This document shows, one piece after another, positions 555-60,148 of a DNA stretch of 64,000 bases. The position numbers and the translations under genes were made by a program. The notes beneath the pieces were generated by a model. It ran no database searches and was not told where the DNA came from. It saw only the letters and a program-made list of their open reading frames with translations. Origin of the DNA: Spirochaetota bacterium (lineage in GTDB: Bacteria > Spirochaetota > UBA4802 > UBA5550). Location: the NCBI GenBank assembly GCA_025457915.1, contig JALOTL010000003.1, positions 62,001-126,000 on the forward strand, given 5' to 3'. The first letter of the stretch is position 1; each line of letters opens with the position of its first letter.

Positions 555-3167
555 ATGAAAGATACAACTGAAGCAAAACTGATATTCGCCTCATACAAAA
601 AAAACGATAATCTATCCGGACCTCAAAGCATAATCGGCGGGGAAATGATAAACCGTCTCAAGGGGGGAGGAATAAAATCGGTTTTTATAATTTCCTCGGA
701 GCCCGTGGATACCGACTCCTATCTTAAAATAGTAAGGGGATACGCCGCCTCCGGGATAAAGGTCTACAACCTGTATCTTGATTCCATCAGCACTGACCAT
801 TTCAGGTCCATTTTAAAGACAGCGGGCGAGATGCATACCTCCGCGGAATCAGGGGGATTCCTCATGTTGTCCTACGGCAGGAGCAATGCGGCCGTAATGC
901 TCGCCTGCTATTACACTTATGAAGGCATGCCTTCGGACGAAGCGGTCAGGAATTCGCTCTCGGTCTCCGGTGAAAATGAAGGTACGGTGCCGGTCGATTT
1001 TATTTCCGGGTTTGCCGGTTATTCCGGGCGCGGCGGCAGCGCCGCTGCTGGAAAGCCGGCTGTGGCGATCGCGTCTTCCGCTGTAAGCCTCATCTCCGAA
1101 AAGGAACCGTCGGCGGATGAAAAAACTGGTGCTGCCGTGAAAGGCAATCAGATGCAGGCTCCACCCGCACCGGTATCCGGTGCTGATGCCGATGAAAAAA
1201 AAGAAAAGAAACCGTCTGAAGCCGGAAAAAAACAGCCTGGAGATAAAAAGGAAAAAGAAAAGCCTGCAATATCAAAGCAGGATAAAATGAACGATGCCGC
1301 CATTGACATGACGGCTAAATATGGAAAGTTCTATACCTCCATAAGGTTCAAGCTCATATCGATAATATCCCTGATAATAATTTTTTCCATGACCGGCATG
1401 ATTTTTCTCGCCACCTATTTTTTCAAAAAAGACAATAAAATAAGGGTACAGGAAAACAATCACAAGATATCGGAAATCATCTCGCTGAAAATAAAGTCGG
1501 AGATAGAGAAATACGAGATAGTATCGAAGGAGATACTCAGGGAGTCTAAAAAAAGGGCGGGTGACCTCGAGGAGCAGGAAGGGGTCAAGGACATTGTCTT
1601 TTCAGCAGTAATGGGCTACGGCAACAGGAAAAACCAGATTTCCGGCAGGTCCTTTTTCAATGCCAGGGTCATGGGCAAGAACCAGATTACCAGGGATGAC
1701 GTGAAGAACGCCTACAATTCATCCGGCGATGCGCTTCTCGGCGCGTTCCGCGGCGACACGGTAGTGATAAACGTATCGCCTTATCTCGAGCGCCCCGTGA
1801 TGGCGGTGAGCTATCCGTTCGAATGGGACGCGGCGCGAAAGGTGAAATCCGTAATCATATCCTTCATCAGGCTCGAGCCCATGCTCAACACCTTCAAGAC
1901 CACGGGGATTACGAAGGCCATAATGATCAACGACAGGGGCGACATCATTGCGCATTCGGATCCCGGGATCGTGCTTTCCGGCGGAAACATATCGTCCCTG
2001 CCGATCGTCAAGATGATGATGAAGAGCAAGCTGGACAACGGCCAGACGAGGTTCTGGGACGAGAAGGGGAGGGCCAACCTCGGGTCCTTCAAGAAGATAG
2101 GCATCGGCGGATGCGGCGTAATAGCGACGGTTGACGAGGACCTTGCGTTCCAGGAGGTCTACAACATCCAGAGGCGCAATATATACCTGACCATTATCGT
2201 CCTCACGAGCGCCATTCTCATCGTCTTCTTTTTCGGCAAGACCATCACGACCCCGATCACCAGGCTGGTCGGAGCGACGAAGAAGATCATACAGGGCCAG
2301 TACAGCGTGGAAATAACCCCGACCACCAAGGACGAGATCGGGCAGCTCACCAGCACGTTCATAGAGATGGGCAAGGGCCTGGAGGAGAGGGAGAAGATCA
2401 AGTCGGCGTTCGGTAAGTTCGTCAACAAGGAGATAGCCGAGGCCGCCCTGAGGGACGAGCTTCACCTGGGCGGGGAAAGAAAGAACGTCTCGGTGCTTTT
2501 TTCCGATATAAGAAGCTTCACCTCGATTTCCGAAAAGCTTGAGCCGGAAGAGGTCGTCGAGTTCCTGAACCAGTACATGTCCAGGATGGTGAAATGCATC
2601 GAATCGACGAGCGGAATAGTCGACAAGTTCATAGGCGACGCTATAATGGCGATCTGGGGCACGCCGTTGTCCAGGGGGAACGACACTGAAAACGCGGTAA
2701 ACGGGGCCCTGGCCATGAGGGGCGCACTGATAGAATTCAACAGGGACAGGGGCGGCCCGAAAAAACCCGTCATCAACATAGGCTGCGGGATTAACACGGG
2801 GCCGGCCCTGGCGGGGCAGATAGGTTCCGAGGACAGGATGGAGTACACGGTAATCGGAGACACGGTCAACCTCGCGTCCAGGATCGAGGCGCTGAACAAG
2901 CCCTTCAGGACTGATATCCTCGTAAGCCAGGACGCGTACGAGCTGGTGAAAGAGATATTTTCAGTTGAAAAGATGAAAAAGATCAGGGTCAAGGGCAAAG
3001 AGGATCCGCAGCAGATTTACGCTGTGCTCGGAAGGCTCGACGATCCGCAATGCCCGAAATCGCTTGAAGAGATGAGGGCCCTGGTAGGCATGGCGCCTTC
3101 CGATGAAGAGGATAACGGACAGGAAACACACGAGGAAAGCGAAGTAAAATATGAGATTATCGAATAG
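555..3167 (+). CDS. Membrane-bound class III adenylate/guanylate cyclase with HAMP domain
   Basis: This 870-residue protein has four parts. A soluble N-terminal region (about 1-260) ends in a low-complexity Lys/Glu/Ala stretch. A first membrane helix (about 267-290) and an extracytoplasmic sensor region (about 290-540) follow. A second helix (about 541-562) leads into a HAMP linker, and a class III cyclase catalytic domain runs from about 640 to 830. The catalytic domain keeps the metal-binding aspartates in LFSDIRSF and FIGDAIMAIWG, and the TVIGDTVNLASRIE block. It should make a cyclic nucleotide, most likely cAMP, in response to an external cue; the substrate is inferred. It overlaps the next gene by 17 bases, so the two are probably one transcript. 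Confidence 0.85.
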   Translation: MKDTTEAKLIFASYKKNDNLSGPQSIIGGEMINRLKGGGIKSVFIISSEPVDTDSYLKIVRGYAASGIKVYNLYLDSISTDHFRSILKTAGEMHTSAESGGFLMLSYGRSNAAVMLACYYTYEGMPSDEAVRNSLSVSGENEGTVPVDFISGFAGYSGRGGSAAAGKPAVAIASSAVSLISEKEPSADEKTGAAVKGNQMQAPPAPVSGADADEKKEKKPSEAGKKQPGDKKEKEKPAISKQDKMNDAAIDMTAKYGKFYTSIRFKLISIISLIIIFSMTGMIFLATYFFKKDNKIRVQENNHKISEIISLKIKSEIEKYEIVSKEILRESKKRAGDLEEQEGVKDIVFSAVMGYGNRKNQISGRSFFNARVMGKNQITRDDVKNAYNSSGDALLGAFRGDTVVINVSPYLERPVMAVSYPFEWDAARKVKSVIISFIRLEPMLNTFKTTGITKAIMINDRGDIIAHSDPGIVLSGGNISSLPIVKMMMKSKLDNGQTRFWDEKGRANLGSFKKIGIGGCGVIATVDEDLAFQEVYNIQRRNIYLTIIVLTSAILIVFFFGKTITTPITRLVGATKKIIQGQYSVEITPTTKDEIGQLTSTFIEMGKGLEEREKIKSAFGKFVNKEIAEAALRDELHLGGERKNVSVLFSDIRSFTSISEKLEPEEVVEFLNQYMSRMVKCIESTSGIVDKFIGDAIMAIWGTPLSRGNDTENAVNGALAMRGALIEFNRDRGGPKKPVINIGCGINTGPALAGQIGSEDRMEYTVIGDTVNLASRIEALNKPFRTDILVSQDAYELVKEIFSVEKMKKIRVKGKEDPQQIYAVLGRLDDPQCPKSLEEMRALVGMAPSDEEDNGQETHEESEVKYEIIE

Positions 3168-18679: not shown

Positions 18680-20821
18680 ATGGAAAAGAAGACAAAGCCC
18701 CTTGAAAATTTTAAACCCCTCCCCAGGGGCGGGTACCTTGTGGAAACATCGATAGGCGGCATACAGTTCGGATCCCCTCCCGAAACGATCAAGGACACCA
18801 TGCTCATGCCCGGCAATGTTCCCCTGGTCTACGTCCTTTCGGCCGAAATGTTCAACTGGAAAAAAGGGATAAGCGTGGCGGAGATAGAGTTCCCGCTGTA
18901 CTATAATTTTTTTATCAGAAAAAAGAAGACGAATGTCATTTGCACCGAGGAACAGTATGCGAAGATGAAGAAGGTCCTGCAGGAATCTCTTTTCGGACCG
19001 AGGAAATTCGACATATCGAAGGATTTCGAAAAAATCCAGCCAAGCGTGCCGGACATAAAAAAGGAGATGAATTTTTTCAGAAATAACCTTAAGTTTTCAG
19101 ACCTTGTGAATTTCGGGATCTTCCGCAAAGGGGTATTCGATATCCAGGGAATAACGATTCATATCAATTCCGCCGGGAACTACGAGGTATACGACGGCAA
19201 ATCATGCATTGCCGTAGTCCCCGGCAGGGTCGAATACAAACCCACTTACCAGATCGGCCAGAGGCTTTCCGAGCCTTATACGCCGCCACTTTTCGGCGTC
19301 ACGTGCCTGGGGCCGAGCCACGGGTTCGACCCGGAGGAAAACACTTCCGGCTTCATCATCTGGCTCAATCACCAGGGTATAATGGTCGATCCGCCGGTCA
19401 ACTCCACGGAATGGCTGGAGGATTCCAACGTCAACCCGAAGCTCATCGACAGCATCATACTCACGCACTGCCACGCCGACCACGACGCCGGGACCTTCCA
19501 GAAGATACTGGAGGAGGGTAAGATAACGATCTATTCCACCGAAACGGTCATGATGAGCTTTCTCAGGAAGTATTCAGCACTCAGCGACGTGGACGTGCAG
19601 TATCTCATGAAGCTCTTCAATTTCCATCCGGTCAAAATAGGCACGCCTGTATACATCAACGGGGGCGAATTCAGGATGTTCTATACGCTTCATTCGATCC
19701 CTACCATGGGATTCAAAATGAGCTTCCAGGACCAGACATTCGTGTATTCATCCGACCACAACAATGATCCGGAAACGCACGGGAAGCTGCTGGAAACTGG
19801 GACCATCACCAGGGAAAGATATGACGAGCTCAGGAATTTTCCGTGGGACTCGAAGGTCATATACCATGAATCCGGAGTGCCTCCGCTGCATACGCCGATA
19901 AGGTATCTGGACTCGCTGCCGGATGAAATAAGGGGAAAAACCGTTATCTACCACATAGCGAAAAAGGACTTTCCGCGTGAAACGGTTCTAACGCTTGCCA
20001 GATTCGGCATCGAGAATACCCTGTATTTCGAGACGAAGTCTCCCAGGTTTGAATCGGCATTCAGGATACTGAGCGTCTTCAAACACCTTGATTTTTTCAC
20101 CGATATTCCCATTGAAAAGGCGCAGGAGTTCATCGAGATAGTCGAGGAGGAGAGGTTCAAAAAGGGCGAGGTCATAATCAGGAAAGGGGGGCAGGGCGAC
20201 AAATTTTATATCATTTATTCCGGCAACGTTTCCATAGACTCGGGCGGGCTAGAGCAGAATAAGATATACGGCGCGTACGACACTTTCGGAGAGGTGGCGC
20301 TCGTAACCGACCAGACGAGGGTCGCGGACGTCATCGCGGAAACTGACGTGATACTGTTCACCATCGAAAGGTACAAGTTCCTCAATTTCATAATAGGGAC
20401 TGATTTTGAGAAAACCCTGAAGAGGCTGGCCAAGATAAGGAGCAGCGAGACCTGGAACCTCCTGGCCATGAACCCGCTGATGCAGTACTGCACCTCTTCC
20501 CAGAAGACATGGCTGGAGTCGATCCTGATACCGGTCGATAAGTTAAAATCCGGGAAGCTCATCAGGGAGGGCGGCGACATCGATTTCATTTACCTCATAA
20601 GGGCCGGCGAGGTCGATGTCAAGAAATCCGGCAAAAGGGTGGCCCTGTTGAAGAAGGGCGATTTCATAGGGAGCCTGCAGAATGTTCACAGGGGCGAGAA
20701 GAGCGGTTATACCTATTCCCACGACGGGCCGGTGTCCCTTTTTGCCATGAGGGCGGAGGATATACTTCAGTTCGTCAACAGGTATCCCGGGCTTCTCATG
20801 AAGCTGGTGTACCGGTTTTAA
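18680..20821 (+). CDS. Metallo-beta-lactamase-fold protein with two cyclic-nucleotide-binding domains
   Basis: This is a 713-residue cytoplasmic protein. After an N-terminal region of about 200 residues comes an MBL domain with the metal motif THCHADHDAG (about 259-268), a second His in HSIPTMGF, Asp in YSSDHNND and a later His in YHESG. Two cNMP-binding domains follow, at about 467-585 and 600-713. The first has a phosphate-binding cassette FGEVALVTDQTRVADV that keeps the key Glu and Arg; the second (GDFIGSLQ) lacks the canonical cassette. The layout suggests a hydrolase whose activity is set by cAMP or cGMP. The substrate is unknown. Class III cyclases encoded at 555 and 22442 could supply the ligand. 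Confidence 0.85.
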   Translation: MEKKTKPLENFKPLPRGGYLVETSIGGIQFGSPPETIKDTMLMPGNVPLVYVLSAEMFNWKKGISVAEIEFPLYYNFFIRKKKTNVICTEEQYAKMKKVLQESLFGPRKFDISKDFEKIQPSVPDIKKEMNFFRNNLKFSDLVNFGIFRKGVFDIQGITIHINSAGNYEVYDGKSCIAVVPGRVEYKPTYQIGQRLSEPYTPPLFGVTCLGPSHGFDPEENTSGFIIWLNHQGIMVDPPVNSTEWLEDSNVNPKLIDSIILTHCHADHDAGTFQKILEEGKITIYSTETVMMSFLRKYSALSDVDVQYLMKLFNFHPVKIGTPVYINGGEFRMFYTLHSIPTMGFKMSFQDQTFVYSSDHNNDPETHGKLLETGTITRERYDELRNFPWDSKVIYHESGVPPLHTPIRYLDSLPDEIRGKTVIYHIAKKDFPRETVLTLARFGIENTLYFETKSPRFESAFRILSVFKHLDFFTDIPIEKAQEFIEIVEEERFKKGEVIIRKGGQGDKFYIIYSGNVSIDSGGLEQNKIYGAYDTFGEVALVTDQTRVADVIAETDVILFTIERYKFLNFIIGTDFEKTLKRLAKIRSSETWNLLAMNPLMQYCTSSQKTWLESILIPVDKLKSGKLIREGGDIDFIYLIRAGEVDVKKSGKRVALLKKGDFIGSLQNVHRGEKSGYTYSHDGPVSLFAMRAEDILQFVNRYPGLLMKLVYRF

Positions 20822-20889: not shown

Positions 20890-22029
20890 TTATTTAAACA
20901 GCTTCGGTTTGAAAACGTGTTCGATTGATTCCATGTTCTGCCCGAGTCCGTAATATTTCAGTATCGCCTCCCATATCGGTCCATCCATGATCTTGAGCAT
21001 GGCGATGTTTATTTTTTTCCGCAGAGGGCTGTTTTGGGGGAAGCCGAACGCGTAAGGAATTCTTTTCATGTCAGTGGCCGATATGGATATTTTTCCCCTG
21101 TAGGCCCTGTCGGCGTGATAATGCAGGGTTACCTCGTCGAATAAAAAGCCGTCAATTTTTTCATTAATCAGGGCATTCAGCGATTCCTCCTCTGTCTCGT
21201 ACAGACTGTATCTACCCCCTATTTTTTTTACAATCCCGTCGGCGACGTCATGTCTCACCGTTCCCAGTTCCATGTCCCTGAGCGACTGAAGGTCAATGAT
21301 TTTTTCGGTAAACGTTCTTGCCGTCAGTGACGAAGCCAGCGAAGCTACGAAGGCGCTCAGGGCGAGGGAACAGACGAGCATCCAGAAAATGCCGGCTATT
21401 CTTCCATAGACGGATTTCAGGATGACGCCGTTGCAGTTGCCCGAGGCAAGGGTAGAGCTTACCCAGTAAACTCCCGCGCCTATGCCCTTGACGCCGTTAT
21501 CGCCGAAATGCTCAGGGTTGTGCTTTCGCTCTATCAGCCAGAAAATAACTCCGGCAAACAGCAGAATGACGACGAGCGATCCTACCACCTTGATCATTCC
21601 CCATGAAAAGAAGATTTTCAGGGCCTCGGTCCAGGGATGAGCGAATCTATCGGGGATTGTTGCAAGGGCGACCCTGGAAGTGCCGAAGGGGATCGAAAAA
21701 TCCGCATTTTTTTCCCTTTCCGTCGTGATATGAACTGCGGCTATCGTGAGGTCAATTGTTCCCTCGCCCAGGGCTTTCATTATTTTTTCCGGTGTCAAAA
21801 CCCTGTATTCATAATCAAGCTTCAATTCCCTGGCAATTTCCTTCCAGAGGTACACGTCAATCCCGGTCCATTTGCCGTCGGCATCCCTGTAGGTGAAGGG
21901 CGGATCATGAAGGATCCCGACTGACAGTTTTTTTGAATGTTTTTTTTGCGCGGCATCGGAATATAGAAAAGGCTGGAAGACCATTAAAAGGATCAGGATG
22001 GCGGATAATTTATATATTTTCATATTCAT
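20890..22029 (-). CDS. Prokaryotic ionotropic glutamate receptor-like channel (periplasmic binding domain interrupted by a pore)
   Basis: The 379-residue protein has a signal peptide (1-26) and the first lobe of a family 3 solute-binding domain (about 34-125, with VGILHDPPFTYRD and TIDLTIAAVHITTERE). Membrane helix 1 (146-166), a pore-loop region (about 185-202), helix 2 (210-232) and the second binding lobe (about 240-350) follow. This lobe-channel-lobe order is that of GluR0-type receptors. The pore loop reads SSTLASGNCNG and lacks the potassium-filter TVGYG motif. It should be a ligand-gated ion channel of the inner membrane; ligand and ion are unknown. SD GGAGG precedes the ATG at 22029. 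Confidence 0.75.
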   Translation of the reverse strand: MNMKIYKLSAILILLMVFQPFLYSDAAQKKHSKKLSVGILHDPPFTYRDADGKWTGIDVYLWKEIARELKLDYEYRVLTPEKIMKALGEGTIDLTIAAVHITTEREKNADFSIPFGTSRVALATIPDRFAHPWTEALKIFFSWGMIKVVGSLVVILLFAGVIFWLIERKHNPEHFGDNGVKGIGAGVYWVSSTLASGNCNGVILKSVYGRIAGIFWMLVCSLALSAFVASLASSLTARTFTEKIIDLQSLRDMELGTVRHDVADGIVKKIGGRYSLYETEEESLNALINEKIDGFLFDEVTLHYHADRAYRGKISISATDMKRIPYAFGFPQNSPLRKKINIAMLKIMDGPIWEAILKYYGLGQNMESIEHVFKPKLFK

Positions 22030-22441: not shown

Positions 22442-23806
22442 ATGTCTTTTTTCAAAGATAAATTGAGACTCTTCGACCGCGATGAAAAATATCCGGAGAC
22501 ATTTATAGAAGAGCTGAATTACCAGTGCGGCAGGATCGTACTGGCATCTTCGGTCATCATCATCTTCGCCTGGCTGCCGTATTTATCACTGGATACCATG
22601 CTGCATCCTGAAGAGCCGCTGTTCCTGTATATACGGCTGGGGCTGAGCATTCTAGGCGTCATCATGCTTGTTCTGCAGTTTCTGCCCTATTTCAAGAAGA
22701 AGGGTCTGGCGCTGATGGTGATCATAGGCGTGTATCTCGAGCTCGCGACCGCGGTCATTACCGGGCTAAGCGGCGGAGATTCCGTCTATATAGGCGGCTA
22801 TCTCTTTATTCTCATGCTCATTCCACTCGTTCCCTTTCCGCGTATCATGCAATGGGGCCTGGTGGCAGGCTCGGCGATTGTTTTTTTTGCCGCCGGCCTT
22901 TCAAGGGGCATGAAATTTGTGACCATGAAGGAGAGGTACAGCCTCAATGACATCATCATGACGGTGTTAGTTTCATCGATATTCATATACATCCTGGACA
23001 AAATCCGCTTTAAGAGCTGGCAGAAATCGAAGATGATAGAGAACCAGAAAATGGACATTATCAAGGACAAGGAAAATATCGACAAACTGCTTCTCAACAT
23101 GCTTCCGTCGCCAATAGCCGATGAGCTGAAGAACCAGGGTTATGTGAAGCCGATCTGTTACAGCTCGTCGACGATAGTTTTCACGGATTTCGTCGATTTC
23201 ACAAAAATAATGGAGACCATGACCCCGGACGATCTCATTCTTGAATTGCACAAGTACTTCTCCTTTTTTGATTCGATGATGGAGATGTATAATCTGGAGA
23301 AATTAAAAACCATCGGCGATATCTACATGTATGCGGGAGGCATGCCGGAGACCAACTCGACGCACGCGGTCGATGCGGTCATGGGCGCCCTCGAAATGCT
23401 TGATTACATGGGCCGGGTCAACAGGGCGAAAGAGGCGGTTGGCAAACCGCCATGGAATATCCGTATCGGCATAAACACCGGCGCACTGGTGGCAGGGATC
23501 GTCGGCGAAAAGAAATTCGTCTACGACGTGTGGGGAGACGCGGTGAACATCGCCAGCCGCATTGAATCGTCCGGCGAACCAGGCAAGGTGAATATCTCAA
23601 ATACAACGCTGGAAGCGGCGCAGGATTTTTTTGACATGGAGTATCGCGGCAAGATCATGGCCAAAAACAAGGGTGTGGTGGATGTGTTTTCAGTGAAAGG
23701 GATCAGGGCCGCCCTCTCGGTAAACGGCGAGGGGAATGCGCCCAATGATGAATTCAGGAAACTTTACGATGGGCTCAAAACCTCGAGGACGCCTGTAAAT
23801 AAATAA
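22442..23806 (+). CDS. Integral membrane class III adenylate cyclase
   Basis: The 454-residue protein has about six hydrophobic helices in residues 30-190, a coiled linker, and a class III cyclase domain at about 235-420. The metal aspartates are in VFTDFVDFTK and KTIGDIYMYAGG. The Lys of KLKTIGD and the Asp of VYDVWGDAVNIASRIES are the residues that select ATP, so cAMP is the likely product. The N-terminal membrane part is not a recognised sensor. GAGGG lies 8 bases before the ATG. It is adjacent to the channel gene and about 1.6 kb from the cNMP-binding MBL gene, so the three may form a signalling neighbourhood. Confidence 0.88.
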   Translation: MSFFKDKLRLFDRDEKYPETFIEELNYQCGRIVLASSVIIIFAWLPYLSLDTMLHPEEPLFLYIRLGLSILGVIMLVLQFLPYFKKKGLALMVIIGVYLELATAVITGLSGGDSVYIGGYLFILMLIPLVPFPRIMQWGLVAGSAIVFFAAGLSRGMKFVTMKERYSLNDIIMTVLVSSIFIYILDKIRFKSWQKSKMIENQKMDIIKDKENIDKLLLNMLPSPIADELKNQGYVKPICYSSSTIVFTDFVDFTKIMETMTPDDLILELHKYFSFFDSMMEMYNLEKLKTIGDIYMYAGGMPETNSTHAVDAVMGALEMLDYMGRVNRAKEAVGKPPWNIRIGINTGALVAGIVGEKKFVYDVWGDAVNIASRIESSGEPGKVNISNTTLEAAQDFFDMEYRGKIMAKNKGVVDVFSVKGIRAALSVNGEGNAPNDEFRKLYDGLKTSRTPVNK

Positions 23807-26390: not shown

Positions 26391-28838
26391 ATGGCTGACG
26401 GCGGTGATCGCATACAGAAGGGGAGCGTGCTGTTTTTGCAGAACGAAACCCCGCAATATATTTACATGCTCCAGAGCGGATCCATGGAGGTGCTTTCGGC
26501 TTCAAGGGAATACAACGGCCTTGATAAAAGCATCATCCTGTCCAAGAGCATCAGGGTCGGGATGATTAAGGATAAAACCCTGATAGCGGGATTCAGTGAT
26601 CTCCTGACCTCCCCGTTTAAAAAGACCGTCAGGGCGATGGAAGACTCAGTAATATCCAAATATCCCATCAAGACCGGGGGATACAAGGCAATTACTTCAT
26701 CGGATCCCGCGCAGGCCATTTCCATTTTGAGGCATTTATACAACAGCCTGAAATCGGCCATGGGAGACGAGGGAAGATATCTGGGCCTGTACAGAAACCT
26801 TCGGATACTCGGCGACAACCTCGGGCTGATTTATTCCTTCCTTTCAATGAAGGGCGCGTCCGGCAAGATTCATTCCGCCTCTGCGGAGCTGTCGGGAAAT
26901 TTTAAAAAATCCGGCGGTTCCATGCCGTCCCAGATCGAGGCGAAGTTTCTCATCCAGGACAATTCCCGGTACCTGAACAGCAACTATGAATTCCCGCAGG
27001 GGTCCATGGTCGGGGCGATAGATAAAAGCAATTACGATTTCATAATTAAATTTCTGAAAATGGAGCCCTCGGTCTTTAAAACCGTCATACAGGCTGACCA
27101 GTCCATCGCGGTTCACATGTTCGAAACTCTTACATCGGCGTATTCAAACTGTTTCGAGAGGGTTGAAACCATTTACAATTTCATTTCAGAAGAATTGTCG
27201 AAATTGTATGGGCTGAGGGACAGCTGGGTTTCGTACCTTGTTGACGGTCACGGCGGCGAGGACTGGAACGATTCCGGACGGCTGTCGCCGAATTTTTTTC
27301 AGCAGTTCCAGGGCCTGACGGCCAAGATCGCGTCGGTCCACACTGATCTTTACGGTAAAGACCCGGCTGACGCGCTGCCTGGAATCGGGAAGCTGGCGTT
27401 GATCAAATCCGGCGGCAAGACCCCTCTGCAGCCTGTACGCGGTGAAACTGAAACGGCCCACAGATCGCCGGGCATCATAAGCGGCGGCAACATGGGCCGG
27501 TCCATGCACCAGATATTCGAGTTCGCCATCGCGGACAAGGAATTCCAGAACAGGTTCCTGAAGATGATGAACGACTTTAAAAGGATGAAGGACCCTTTCG
27601 ACACCGAAATCGAGGGAAGAAAGGTCAGGAGACACATCACCAAGATGTACTGGGACCTGTACAAGCAGGTCTACCTGAGGAGCAAGACGGAATCCACCCT
27701 GCCGAAGCCAGCGTATCTAATGCTGATGTATGGGTTTCTTGATGAAGAGCTTCTTGAAAGGGATCAGATAAACGAGCTGAACGACCTGGCAAGGGTCAAA
27801 GAGAGGACCGGCAATATAAAGGTAGTTGTCGAAAACGAGTTCCTTTCAAGGATACACGCCGGCGAGGAGGATCCAAGCATAACCGAGATGGGGCTTACCT
27901 ACCAGGCATTTCTGCTTGAACAGGAGAAGCACAGCAAAAAGAAAGAAGACGATCGTGATGATATAAAAGACGAAAACGTTAAAAAAGCCCTGTTCGAGAT
28001 AGAGCAGAGGGTGGCAAGCGCCTGCGCCGTATGTTCCGGTTCGACAGCTACGGCGTTTCCCATCCTGAATTCCAGGGCTCTCGGCGGGAGCCTGAAACCG
28101 CTTTTCACCACCAAGCACAAGATAGAAACCATAGTAAACGGACTGAGGGACGTTGATTATTCCGTTTTTTACCGTGAAACCGTTCTGAAGATGGGCGAGG
28201 CCAGGGAAATAATCCAGGAGGAGATCACCCCTTATTTCATCCTGCTGCCGGTATACGGCACAAAGACCATGCTCTGGCAGGAGCTGACGGGCATCAACAA
28301 GAGGAGCAGGGGCAGGATCGTCATACCGATATTCTTCATGGGGGATCTCACGAGGATGCTTGCCCATTCGTTCGCATGCTTCAGGTGGGAGCTGAACAGG
28401 ACCATAAAGGGCGCCATGTGGGGGGACCCGATAGAGGGCGGAGTTACAGGCGAGTATTTCGATTACGTGAATACGTACAAAAAGATGTCGAAGCTGTCGC
28501 AGGAGGCGAAGGAGAGGATCACTGAAAGATTCAGGTCCCTCAGGACGAACAGGGACAGGTTCGCGGACGATTACATCCAGTGGGTCCTTTTCGAGAAGGA
28601 CGGCATCATGAAGCAGAATTCCGTGGTCAGGGAGATGTTTTTCAAGCACATACCATTCAGGAAGGATACCAGGGACAAGCTTGAGAACATGCCTGCATTC
28701 ACGCAGGCGGCCAACCGGTACAAGAATGTGAATAAAAGGATCGTCGAGGCTTCAGAGAGAAAATTCAAAAAATACCAGGACGAACAGGGGAATTTTCCGG
28801 ACAAGATACAGAAGTATATCGAGTTTTTAAAAATATGA
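26391..28838 (+). CDS. Large protein with N-terminal cyclic-nucleotide-binding-like domain, function unknown
   Basis: The 815-residue protein begins with a cNMP-binding-type beta-roll (about 5-105: KGSVLFLQNETPQYIYMLQSG, then a later SKYPIKTGGYKAI). It has no clear phosphate-binding cassette, so ligand binding is uncertain. The remainder is mostly helical, charged and without a recognised domain. A polar linker with a Lys/Asp-rich run occurs near 515-530. There are no signal peptide and no membrane helices. GGAG lies 8 bases ahead of the ATG. It follows the HNH gene and is convergent with the NamZ-like gene 6 bases away. Confidence 0.6.
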   Translation: MADGGDRIQKGSVLFLQNETPQYIYMLQSGSMEVLSASREYNGLDKSIILSKSIRVGMIKDKTLIAGFSDLLTSPFKKTVRAMEDSVISKYPIKTGGYKAITSSDPAQAISILRHLYNSLKSAMGDEGRYLGLYRNLRILGDNLGLIYSFLSMKGASGKIHSASAELSGNFKKSGGSMPSQIEAKFLIQDNSRYLNSNYEFPQGSMVGAIDKSNYDFIIKFLKMEPSVFKTVIQADQSIAVHMFETLTSAYSNCFERVETIYNFISEELSKLYGLRDSWVSYLVDGHGGEDWNDSGRLSPNFFQQFQGLTAKIASVHTDLYGKDPADALPGIGKLALIKSGGKTPLQPVRGETETAHRSPGIISGGNMGRSMHQIFEFAIADKEFQNRFLKMMNDFKRMKDPFDTEIEGRKVRRHITKMYWDLYKQVYLRSKTESTLPKPAYLMLMYGFLDEELLERDQINELNDLARVKERTGNIKVVVENEFLSRIHAGEEDPSITEMGLTYQAFLLEQEKHSKKKEDDRDDIKDENVKKALFEIEQRVASACAVCSGSTATAFPILNSRALGGSLKPLFTTKHKIETIVNGLRDVDYSVFYRETVLKMGEAREIIQEEITPYFILLPVYGTKTMLWQELTGINKRSRGRIVIPIFFMGDLTRMLAHSFACFRWELNRTIKGAMWGDPIEGGVTGEYFDYVNTYKKMSKLSQEAKERITERFRSLRTNRDRFADDYIQWVLFEKDGIMKQNSVVREMFFKHIPFRKDTRDKLENMPAFTQAANRYKNVNKRIVEASERKFKKYQDEQGNFPDKIQKYIEFLKI

Positions 28839-50824: not shown

Positions 50825-51508
50825 ATGCATCTGGCCGTTTCATGGAGCGGAGGGAAGGACAGTATGCTTGCGTGTCATGATGCGATCAGGGCGGGCCATG
50901 ATGTAACCTGCCTGCTGAACCTGATATCCAAAGGGAGTCTCCGCTGCTGTTTTCACGGACTGGATAACGGACTGATCAGAGACCAGGCCGGCGCGGTCGG
51001 GATCCCTCTCCTCCTGAAAGAAATGAGCGAGGGCATGAATGATTATGAAAGGGAATTCAAAGAGGTCCTTTCCGGCCTGAAGGACACGGGCATAGATGGC
51101 GTTGTTTTCGGGGATATATATCTCGACGAACACAGGGAATGGGTGGAGCGTGTCTGCGGCGATGCCGGTCTTGCCGCGCTGGAGCCACTGTGGGGAATGG
51201 AAGCCGGGAAGACGGTCGGGGAATTCATAGCAAGGGGATTCAAGGCCGTGGTCGTAAGCTGCAGGGAGGAACTCGGTGAGGATTTTGTCGGCAGGACAGT
51301 GGACGGGGAGATGATTGAGGAATTAAAGGCAAAAAATATCTGCCCCTGCGGTGAAAACGGCGAATACCATACCCTTGTCGTCGACGGCCCGATTTTTAAA
51401 CGGCGGATAGACATTCTGGAAGTGCGCAGTGAGCTGAGGGACGGTTTCTGGAGGCACTGGTTCCTGGATATTAAAAGTTACGGGATGCGGGATAAAAATG
51501 GTTTTTGA
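50825..51508 (+). CDS. Dph6-like ATP-pyrophosphatase (adenine nucleotide alpha-hydrolase)
   Basis: The 227-residue protein begins VSWSGGKDSMLACHDA, the PP-loop for ATP binding, and has CGENGEYHTLVVDGP near the end, the family hallmark. The eukaryotic/archaeal homologues amidate diphthine; in bacteria, which lack diphthamide, the substrate is unknown. GGGAGG lies 8 bases ahead of the ATG. It follows menG after 54 bases. Confidence 0.85.
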   Translation: MHLAVSWSGGKDSMLACHDAIRAGHDVTCLLNLISKGSLRCCFHGLDNGLIRDQAGAVGIPLLLKEMSEGMNDYEREFKEVLSGLKDTGIDGVVFGDIYLDEHREWVERVCGDAGLAALEPLWGMEAGKTVGEFIARGFKAVVVSCREELGEDFVGRTVDGEMIEELKAKNICPCGENGEYHTLVVDGPIFKRRIDILEVRSELRDGFWRHWFLDIKSYGMRDKNGF

Positions 51509-58283: not shown

Positions 58284-58312
58284 TTGACTTTTTATCAAAA
58301 AAAAAATATTGT
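58284..58312 (+). promoter_or_regulatory. Probable promoter of the ADTH synthase operon
   Basis: TTGACT (58284-58289) and TATTGT (58307-58312) are 17 bases apart, about 70 bases before the ATG at 58383. The -35 matches the consensus at 5 of 6 positions and the -10 at 4 of 6. Confidence 0.45.
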
Positions 58313-58382
58313 ACAAAAACTCTTTATAAAACAAGGGAATTTCTTTAAATTACATTTTAAATGTTTACTTTCAGGAGCTTAT

Positions 58383-59147
58383 ATGATCGGCAAGAAAATA
58401 AGGCTGCAGCGAATCATAAACCGCAATAACGGGAGGACCATCATAGTGCCCATGGATCATGGTGTGACTATAGGACCTATCCCGGGGTTGATAGACATGA
58501 CTTCAACCGTGGACAAGGTTGCCGGGGGTGGAGCGAACGCCATACTGATGCACAAGGGGCTAGTCGAAACCGGCCACAGATCGAGCGGAAAGGACATCGG
58601 GCTGATAGTGCACCTTTCGGCGAGCACCGTGCTTTCGCCGGATTCGAACGCCAAGACCCTGGTCTGCTCGGTCGAAGAGGCCGTAAGGCTCGGTGCCGAC
58701 GCGGTTTCAATCCACGTGAATATCGGCGCCACGACGGAGAGCGAAATGCTGTTCAACATGGGACAGATATCCAGGGCCTGCAGGGACTGGGGAATGCCGC
58801 TTCTCGCGATGATGTACACCAGGGGGCCGAAGATCCAGAACGAGTACGACGTCAAGGTGGTCAAGCATGCGGCAAGGGTCGGCGCTGAGCTGGGCGCGGA
58901 TATTGTAAAGGTCAACTATACCGGATCGATAGAAAGCTTCAGGGAAGTCGTGGCGGGATGCCCGGTCCCGGTGGTTATTGCCGGCGGGGAGAAGATGGAG
59001 ACCGACGACGAGATTCTCGATATGGTCAGGGGATGCATAAAGGCGGGCGGAGCAGGGGTTTCGATAGGCAGAAACGTGTTCCAGCACGATGATCCGCAGG
59101 ATATAGTGAAAAGGATATCTGGAATCGTGCACGGCGGTCTTGCATGA
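58383..59147 (+). CDS. 2-amino-3,7-dideoxy-D-threo-hept-6-ulosonate synthase (archaeal-type shikimate entry, AroA')
   Basis: This 254-residue DhnA-type class I aldolase barrel has [57 protein letters not shown] (Schiff-base Lys), PVVIAGGEK and [16 protein letters not shown]. The MDHG(V/M)T and GRNVFQ motifs fit ADTH synthase as well as archaeal fructose-bisphosphate aldolase. The neighbour, a dehydroquinate synthase II, decides for ADTH synthase. It makes the precursor of 3-dehydroquinate from aspartate semialdehyde and a 6-deoxy-hexose phosphate. The ATG at 58383 has AGGAG 6 bases ahead. It overlaps the next gene by 4 bases. Confidence 0.82.
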
Positions 59148-60148
59148 AGGAGATCTGGCTCCACCTGGATAAATGGAAAAAGGAACTCGTAACTGAAGCG
59201 ATAGAAACCGGAGTAGATGCCGTGCTTACCACCAAGGAACTTGCCGCAAGGGTGAGGGATCTGGGGAGGATAATGGTTGTGTGCCCCGAGACCGGCGACA
59301 AAAAGGTGCCGGAAGACGTCGAGGTTATCATAATAAACAACAAGGAAGACGAGGTCAGGGCCGCAAGGTCGCTCGGATCCAGGACCGTCATTGTAAGGAC
59401 CACTGACTGGGACATTATTCCACTTGAAAACCTGATCCCGCAGGGCGGTCAGAGGCTGTTCACCTTCGTCAGGAACCTGGAAGACGCAAAGCTCGCTGCG
59501 GGAATAATGGAAAAGGGCGTTGCCGGAGTCGTCCTGGAGACCTCGAGCAGGGAAGAGATATCCAGGGTTGTAAAGTTCATTAAAAACCTGGAGAGTGAGA
59601 GTTTCGGCCTTTCCATCTTTACGGTAACACAGGTAAAAAATATCGGCCTCGGCGACAGGGTCTGCGTGGATACCTGCAGCAACCTTGAGCTCGGGGAGGG
59701 CCTTTTTGTCGGGAATTCAAGCCAGGCACTTTTCCTTGTCCACGCGGAGAACATAGAAAATCCATACGTTTCCCCGAGGCCATTCAGGGTGAACGCGGGA
59801 GCCGTGCATTCCTATGTCAGGATACCGGGAGACAGGACTAGATACCTGGGTGAGCTTAAAACCGGCGACCCGGTCCTGATAATCAACGGCAGGGGGGACA
59901 GCTATACCGCGCACGTCGGCAGATCCAAGATAGAAAAGAGGCCGCTGCTGGTTCTTTTCGCTGAAGATCCCGAAGGGAACGAGCATTCAGTTGTTCTCCA
60001 GAATGCCGAGACGATCAGGCTTATGGATGTTGACGGGAAACCGGTAAGCGTGGTGAAGCTCAAAAAGGGCGACAAGGTCCTCGGTTTCTCTGAAAAGACA
60101 GGACGACATTTCGGGATGGCAGTTGAGGAGACCATCAAGGAGCAGTAG
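59144..60148 (+). CDS. 3-dehydroquinate synthase II (archaeal type, AroB')
   Basis: The 334-residue protein has the family signature [50 protein letters not shown], and the [11 protein letters not shown] stretch. It converts the ADTH product, with NAD+-dependent deamination, to 3-dehydroquinate. The ATG overlaps the stop of the ADTH synthase. Together they replace AroF/AroG and AroB of the usual route. The following kinase gene starts 54 bases on. Confidence 0.92.

Follow-up and report, generated by a model that had tools for sequence, protein, structure and literature searches.

The stretch analysed here (the window) comprises 64,000 nucleotides of a Spirochaetota bacterium genome (assembly GCA_025457915.1, contig JALOTL010000003.1, positions 62,001 to 126,000 of the forward strand). 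An uninterrupted open reading frame at positions 18680..20821 of the + strand (stop codon included) encodes a 713-amino-acid (aa) protein in which a metallo-beta-lactamase (MBL) domain is followed by two cyclic-nucleotide-binding (CNB) domains. This fusion had been recognised in a preliminary description of the sequence and a Pfam scan of the reading frame agrees, with matches to Lactamase_B_2 (PF12706; 31.8 bits, cut-off 27), Lactamase_B (PF00753; 30.6 bits, cut-off 22.7) and two stretches of cNMP_binding (92.9 bits, cut-off 27.5). Four domains were delimited on the + strand, namely an N-terminal domain (NTD; residues ~12-204, 18713..19291), the MBL catalytic domain (residues ~205-456, 19292..20047), CNB1 (residues ~460-590, 20057..20449) and CNB2 (residues ~595-713, 20462..20818). 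Structure prediction had been proposed in the preliminary description as a check; the full-length AlphaFold2 model, built from a 53-sequence alignment, had a mean predicted local distance difference test score (pLDDT) of 90.7 and a predicted template-modelling score (pTM) of 0.91, indicating that the folds are modelled with confidence. In the proteins examined a conserved NTD precedes the MBL domain; it had no match in Pfam or the PDB. An NTD profile detected mostly 708-806 aa frames in 30 related genomes, as well as two of ~440 aa and a short fragment located at the end of a contig. As no obvious ribosome-binding site was observed upstream of the ATG at 18680 and close relatives can be aligned with the window protein only from ~residues 8-14, the exact start codon is uncertain. 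A scan for promoters and terminators gave results at chance level.

Conservation was examined using two family alignments, one of the 31 closest relatives and one of 53 sequences with rows down to 22% identity. The HxHxDH motif (i.e. H263-C-H265-A-D267-H268; 19466..19483, + strand) is preceded by T262 and hence reads as [T/S]HXHXDH. The intact metal centre noted previously was found to be accompanied by the remaining MBL ligands, all on the + strand: H338 (19691..19693), which aligns with a histidine of Apyc1, D359 (19754..19756), the bridging aspartate of MBL motif 4, and H404 (19889..19891), located in a PLHTP segment, the latter two also aligning with Apyc1. All seven ligands (H263, H265, D267, H268, H338, D359 and H404) are invariant in both alignments, indicating that the metal site is not a chance occurrence.

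As whole-protein fold searches were dominated by the CNB domains, modelling and searching were carried out on the isolated MBL domain. Comparison of a profile of this domain with all PDB chains placed three Apyc1 structures at the top (7t28, E = 8e-12; 7u2s, 9.8e-12; 7u2r, 2.2e-10), followed by the Bacillus YhfI-type structures 1zkp (1.1e-8) and 6kns (2.7e-7) and, below these, human ELAC1 (1.2e-6) and RNase Z (2.5e-5). Two Paenibacillus Apyc1 structures align over almost the whole domain, with matching metal ligands and a matching C-terminal H-T...LP...H segment. A Foldseek search with the separate domain model (pLDDT 92.9) ranked Apyc1 at positions 1-3 (TM 0.69-0.75), YhfI-type structures at 4-10, the Bsp38 Apyc1 at 11 and RNase Z at 17. 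Thus, in both profile and fold searches the domain is nearer to known cyclic-nucleotide phosphodiesterases (PDEs) than to RNase Z, PhnP or lactamases. Apyc1 cleaves all cyclic nucleotides whilst YhfI prefers cyclic AMP (cAMP) and cyclic GMP (cGMP) (PMC9117128). The [T/S]HXHXDH motif, fitted by THCHADH in the window protein, is the proposed signature of atypical class-II PDEs, which were there assigned to PF12706 (PMC9293780). The Pfam scan of the protein (E<=0.1) gave no match to typical class-II PDEs (PF02112, yeast PDE1 type), and nothing of this type exceeded the cut-off in the genome. Those features of the atypical class-II group (i.e. YhfI, Rv1339, CpdA and Apyc1) that can be tested computationally are present in the catalytic domain. 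The two convergent searches make a 3',5'-cyclic-nucleotide PDE the probable identity of the enzyme, and the evidence points to this activity and not to that of a lactonase or nuclease. An alternative is that cAMP controls another reaction, the MBL domain being a cyclic-nucleotide-regulated hydrolase of a tRNA 3' end or other RNA, a lactone or a phosphonate-type diester. Similarities to RNase Z (TIGR02651; 32.6 bits, cut-off 292.95) and PhnP (19 bits) were detected among NCBIfam models, all far under the cut-offs, and these enzymes come next in the fold search; as the cyclic-nucleotide PDEs rank above RNase Z, PhnP and lactamases by both profile and fold, a different substrate is considered rather improbable.

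The phosphate-binding cassette of CNB1, located from the alignments (residues 536-553, FGEVALVTDQTRVADVIA; 20285..20338, + strand), reads F536-G-E538-V-A-L-V-T-D-Q-T-R547-V-A-D-V. The FGE triplet is invariant and R547 is present in 30 of the 31 closest relatives; all rows of the 53-row alignment have G537 and E538, and conservation of R547 is >=90%. CNB2 retains the fold but has I-G-S-L-Q-N-V-H-R-G-E-K-S-G-Y at the cassette position (residues 664-679) and is degenerate. The preliminary description had rated the first cassette as plausible and the second as degenerate, and both assessments are borne out. Structure and profile comparisons matched the tandem CNBs to the regulatory domains of PKA and PKG; the CNB domain of SthK (4d7s) was also matched. 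Retention of E538 in all and of R547 in nearly all proteins whose CNB2 cassette has decayed argues for selection on ligand binding in CNB1, and among the sequence evidence this contrast speaks most strongly for continued ligand binding by CNB1. CNB2, a fold lacking its cassette, is probably a structural or dimer element. The same decay, which extends to the whole subfamily, could be read as a sign that CNB1 too has ceased to regulate the PDE, or that it inhibits the enzyme or serves dimerisation or localisation. The two ~440-aa frames detected with the NTD profile are paralogues lacking CNB domains (L111:2194-3501, - strand; L112:2959-4272, + strand) and consist of NTD and MBL domains only (436-438 aa) with all metal motifs; the catalytic core therefore exists without the sensor and can probably work alone, and these paralogues offer a natural unregulated form for comparison. 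Against a CNB1 without a regulatory role stands the apparent selection for ligand binding, and this possibility is judged to be unlikely.

The ligand of CNB1 was considered in relation to the cyclases of the genome, in which 22 class III cyclase domains were detected. The ATP-type lysine is retained in 22/22 domains, the partner position is Asp, Thr or Ser in 20, and the guanylate-cyclase cysteine is present in none of the 20 readable domains, the two weakest domains (L109 and L110) being unclear at the partner position. CNB domains selective for cGMP (e.g. those of PKG and cyclic-nucleotide-gated channels) carry Thr or Ser directly after the cassette Arg; the corresponding residue 548 of the window protein is Val. 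As the cyclases look ATP-type and V548 replaces Thr/Ser, cAMP would be the more likely ligand. Action of cAMP at a spirochaete CNB domain is established through SthK (PMC7744796) and in Leptospira a form of motility that depends on cAMP has been described (PMC9043183).

The distribution of the gene was examined in a sample of 295 Spirochaetota genomes using a membership threshold of E<=1e-30. The gene was detected in 69 genomes, indicating a widespread spirochaete family and not a one-off. Candidatus Marispirochaeta associata JC231 (L017) has an orthologue. Class III cyclases were present in 69/69 genomes with the gene as compared to 136/226 without it (Fisher P = 2e-13, phylogenetically confounded). 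In distant paralogues of 22-29% identity (L073-L075, L077-L079, L081 and L082) both cassettes are preserved in full or almost in full, and the tree of the NTD and MBL domains is consistent with the CNB2 cassette having been lost once, on the branch leading to the subfamily of the window protein (Shimodaira-Hasegawa-like approximate likelihood ratio test support, 93). Decay of CNB2 thus appears to be one old event, a reading kept tentative because of the long branches in this tree. The orthologue L022:1463-3721 (+ strand), from a contig that carries the label Candidatus Hydrogenedentota, falls inside the spirochaete clade and represents either gene transfer or a mis-binned contig. A plasmid search gave no match.

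Together these features favour, with a probability of roughly 0.7, a cytosolic class II (MBL-fold) 3',5'-cyclic-nucleotide PDE carrying its own allosteric cAMP sensor and acting as a feedback brake. Under this model, cAMP produced by the many adenylate cyclases of the cell would probably be hydrolysed at the two-metal MBL site and would also be bound by CNB1 through the intact FGE...R cassette; occupancy of CNB1 would alter the rate of hydrolysis, most likely upward, and would thereby restrain cAMP levels as GbpB (cAMP) and GbpA (cGMP) do for their ligands in Dictyostelium. The preliminary description had proposed a hydrolase gated by cAMP or cGMP: the catalytic site, the retained ligand-competent CNB1 and the modelled folds support this in silico, whilst gating itself, like the identity of substrate and ligand, the direction of the effect and the role in feedback, is what we infer from the computed domains, metal ligands, cassette, conservation, closest structures and cyclase co-occurrence. 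Several observations weigh against this model. Substrates change easily among MBL folds, the identity of the MBL domain to Apyc1 and YhfI is only ~15-18%, and RNase Z also fits the [T/S]HXHXDH motif. The sign of regulation is not readable from sequence, and the cassette Arg is lost in two divergent relatives (L069 and L070), so that ligand binding would not be universal in the family. Phylogeny confounds the co-occurrence with cyclases, in that the gene is missing from entire families that have no cyclase. No conserved operon partner was found, with no neighbour kept beyond near relatives in 30 loci. In favour of the model, no class I PDE (PF00233) was found in the genome, an absence that is not firmly established because PF00233 matched no control genome either.

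The genes surrounding the locus in the window encode TypA, a solute-binding/channel protein and a predicted adenylate cyclase. The last of these, a class III cyclase of 454 aa with a K/D pair (22442..23806, + strand), is a neighbour by position only; a second class III cyclase, with a HAMP domain (870 aa, K/T pair, also a predicted adenylate cyclase; 555..3167, + strand), is a possible source of ligand that is not linked to the gene. Both cyclases of the preliminary description are real, but its use of the one lying only ~1.6 kb away as support did not stand: the genome has 22 cyclase domains and no cyclase was found beside the gene in the loci of 30 close relatives (flanks up to 8 kb). Proximity is therefore weak evidence, cyclase linkage was dropped as a functional argument, and the adjacency in the window is probably coincidental. 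Among further loci, a cyclase is nearby at two divergent paralogues and one relative (L074, L077 and L086); L074:2539-6652 and L077:2962-6557 are divergent MBL-CNB-CNB paralogues with both cassettes intact, each adjoining a class III cyclase gene. Five of the 30 close-relative loci contain GGDEF genes, and other neighbours are shared mainly among near relatives. The channel protein (20890-22029, - strand) combines SBP_bac_3 and Lig_chan domains, the arrangement of a prokaryotic glutamate-receptor-like ion channel, and the sequence of its pore region, STLASGNCNG, does not contain the K+ signature TVGYG.

The neighbourhood also bears on a possible role in defence or counter-defence, in which the protein would be related to Pycsar, with CNB domains like those of PycTIR and an MBL domain like that of phage Apyc1. 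PADLOC gave matches to PycTIR and PycC in the CNB domains, and Apyc1 is the closest match of the MBL domain. These PADLOC matches span only the generic CNB domain, however, and the gene is spread through the phylum with housekeeping neighbours (typA, def and fmt). No TIR or PycC partner was seen at the locus, nor the combination of PycC with a TIR or transmembrane effector, and one scan of viral contigs gave only two weak, partial MBL matches. The group to which Apyc1 belongs also contains enzymes of bacteria, namely YhfI and the CpdA of Corynebacterium. A role in Pycsar is regarded as very improbable.

Other genes of the window include an 815-aa frame (26391-28838, + strand) whose only domain signal is a weak cNMP_binding match near the N-terminus, below the threshold; its product may be a further cAMP effector. 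A gene for a DeoC/LacD-type aldolase followed by one for 3-dehydroquinate synthase II (PF01959, 396 bits; 58284-60148, + strand) looks, in this spirochaete, like the archaeal type of route into the shikimate pathway. Diphthamide is a modification of eukaryotes and archaea, and a Diphthami_syn_2 (PF01902) protein is encoded in this bacterium at 50825-51508 (+ strand).

The protein was also compared with known systems. Apyc1 of phage and Paenibacillus (7U2R, 7U2S and 7T28; PMC9117128) provides the closest solved structures to the MBL domain, with aligned ligands, but is a single-domain protein of ~250 aa without a CNB domain and has an identity of only ~15-18%. YhfI of B. subtilis, Rv1339 of M. 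tuberculosis and CpdA of C. glutamicum (PMC9293780) share the [T/S]HXHXDH motif and a PF12706-type MBL domain, and YhfI structures are the next-best matches; these enzymes lack regulatory domains and their identity is low. SthK, the cAMP-gated channel of Spirochaeta thermophila (PMC7744796), is likewise a spirochaete protein under cAMP control at a CNB domain, but its output is an ion channel and not an enzyme. The nearest layout is that of the class IIb PDEs GbpA (PdeD) and GbpB (PdeE) of Dictyostelium, in which an MBL domain is followed by two CNBs and activity is stimulated by cGMP (GbpA) or cAMP (GbpB) (PMC11988041). The window protein similarly has this order in one soluble polypeptide, with cyclic-nucleotide-stimulated hydrolysis predicted; it differs in being bacterial and in the degenerate CNB2 cassette beside an intact CNB1, and it has a conserved ~190-aa NTD. 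The likeness to GbpA and GbpB described here is one of layout. The preliminary view that direct cyclic-nucleotide control of an MBL enzyme is rarely described thus holds for bacteria and not in general, given GbpA and GbpB (PMC11988041). A literature search covering few subscription journals yielded no description of a bacterial MBL-CNB protein, which is weak evidence of novelty. The chances appear evenly balanced that Spirochaetota possess a bacterial family of cAMP-gated MBL PDEs, with one CNB as sensor and the other structural, a family that would correspond to, and may even have given rise to, the amoebal cAMP- and cGMP-stimulated enzymes. Some spirochaete genomes encode tens of class III cyclases and the removal of their cAMP is little described; if correct, this proposal would supply genomes carrying tens of adenylate cyclases with negative feedback built into one polypeptide and would extend to bacteria an architecture known from Dictyostelium.
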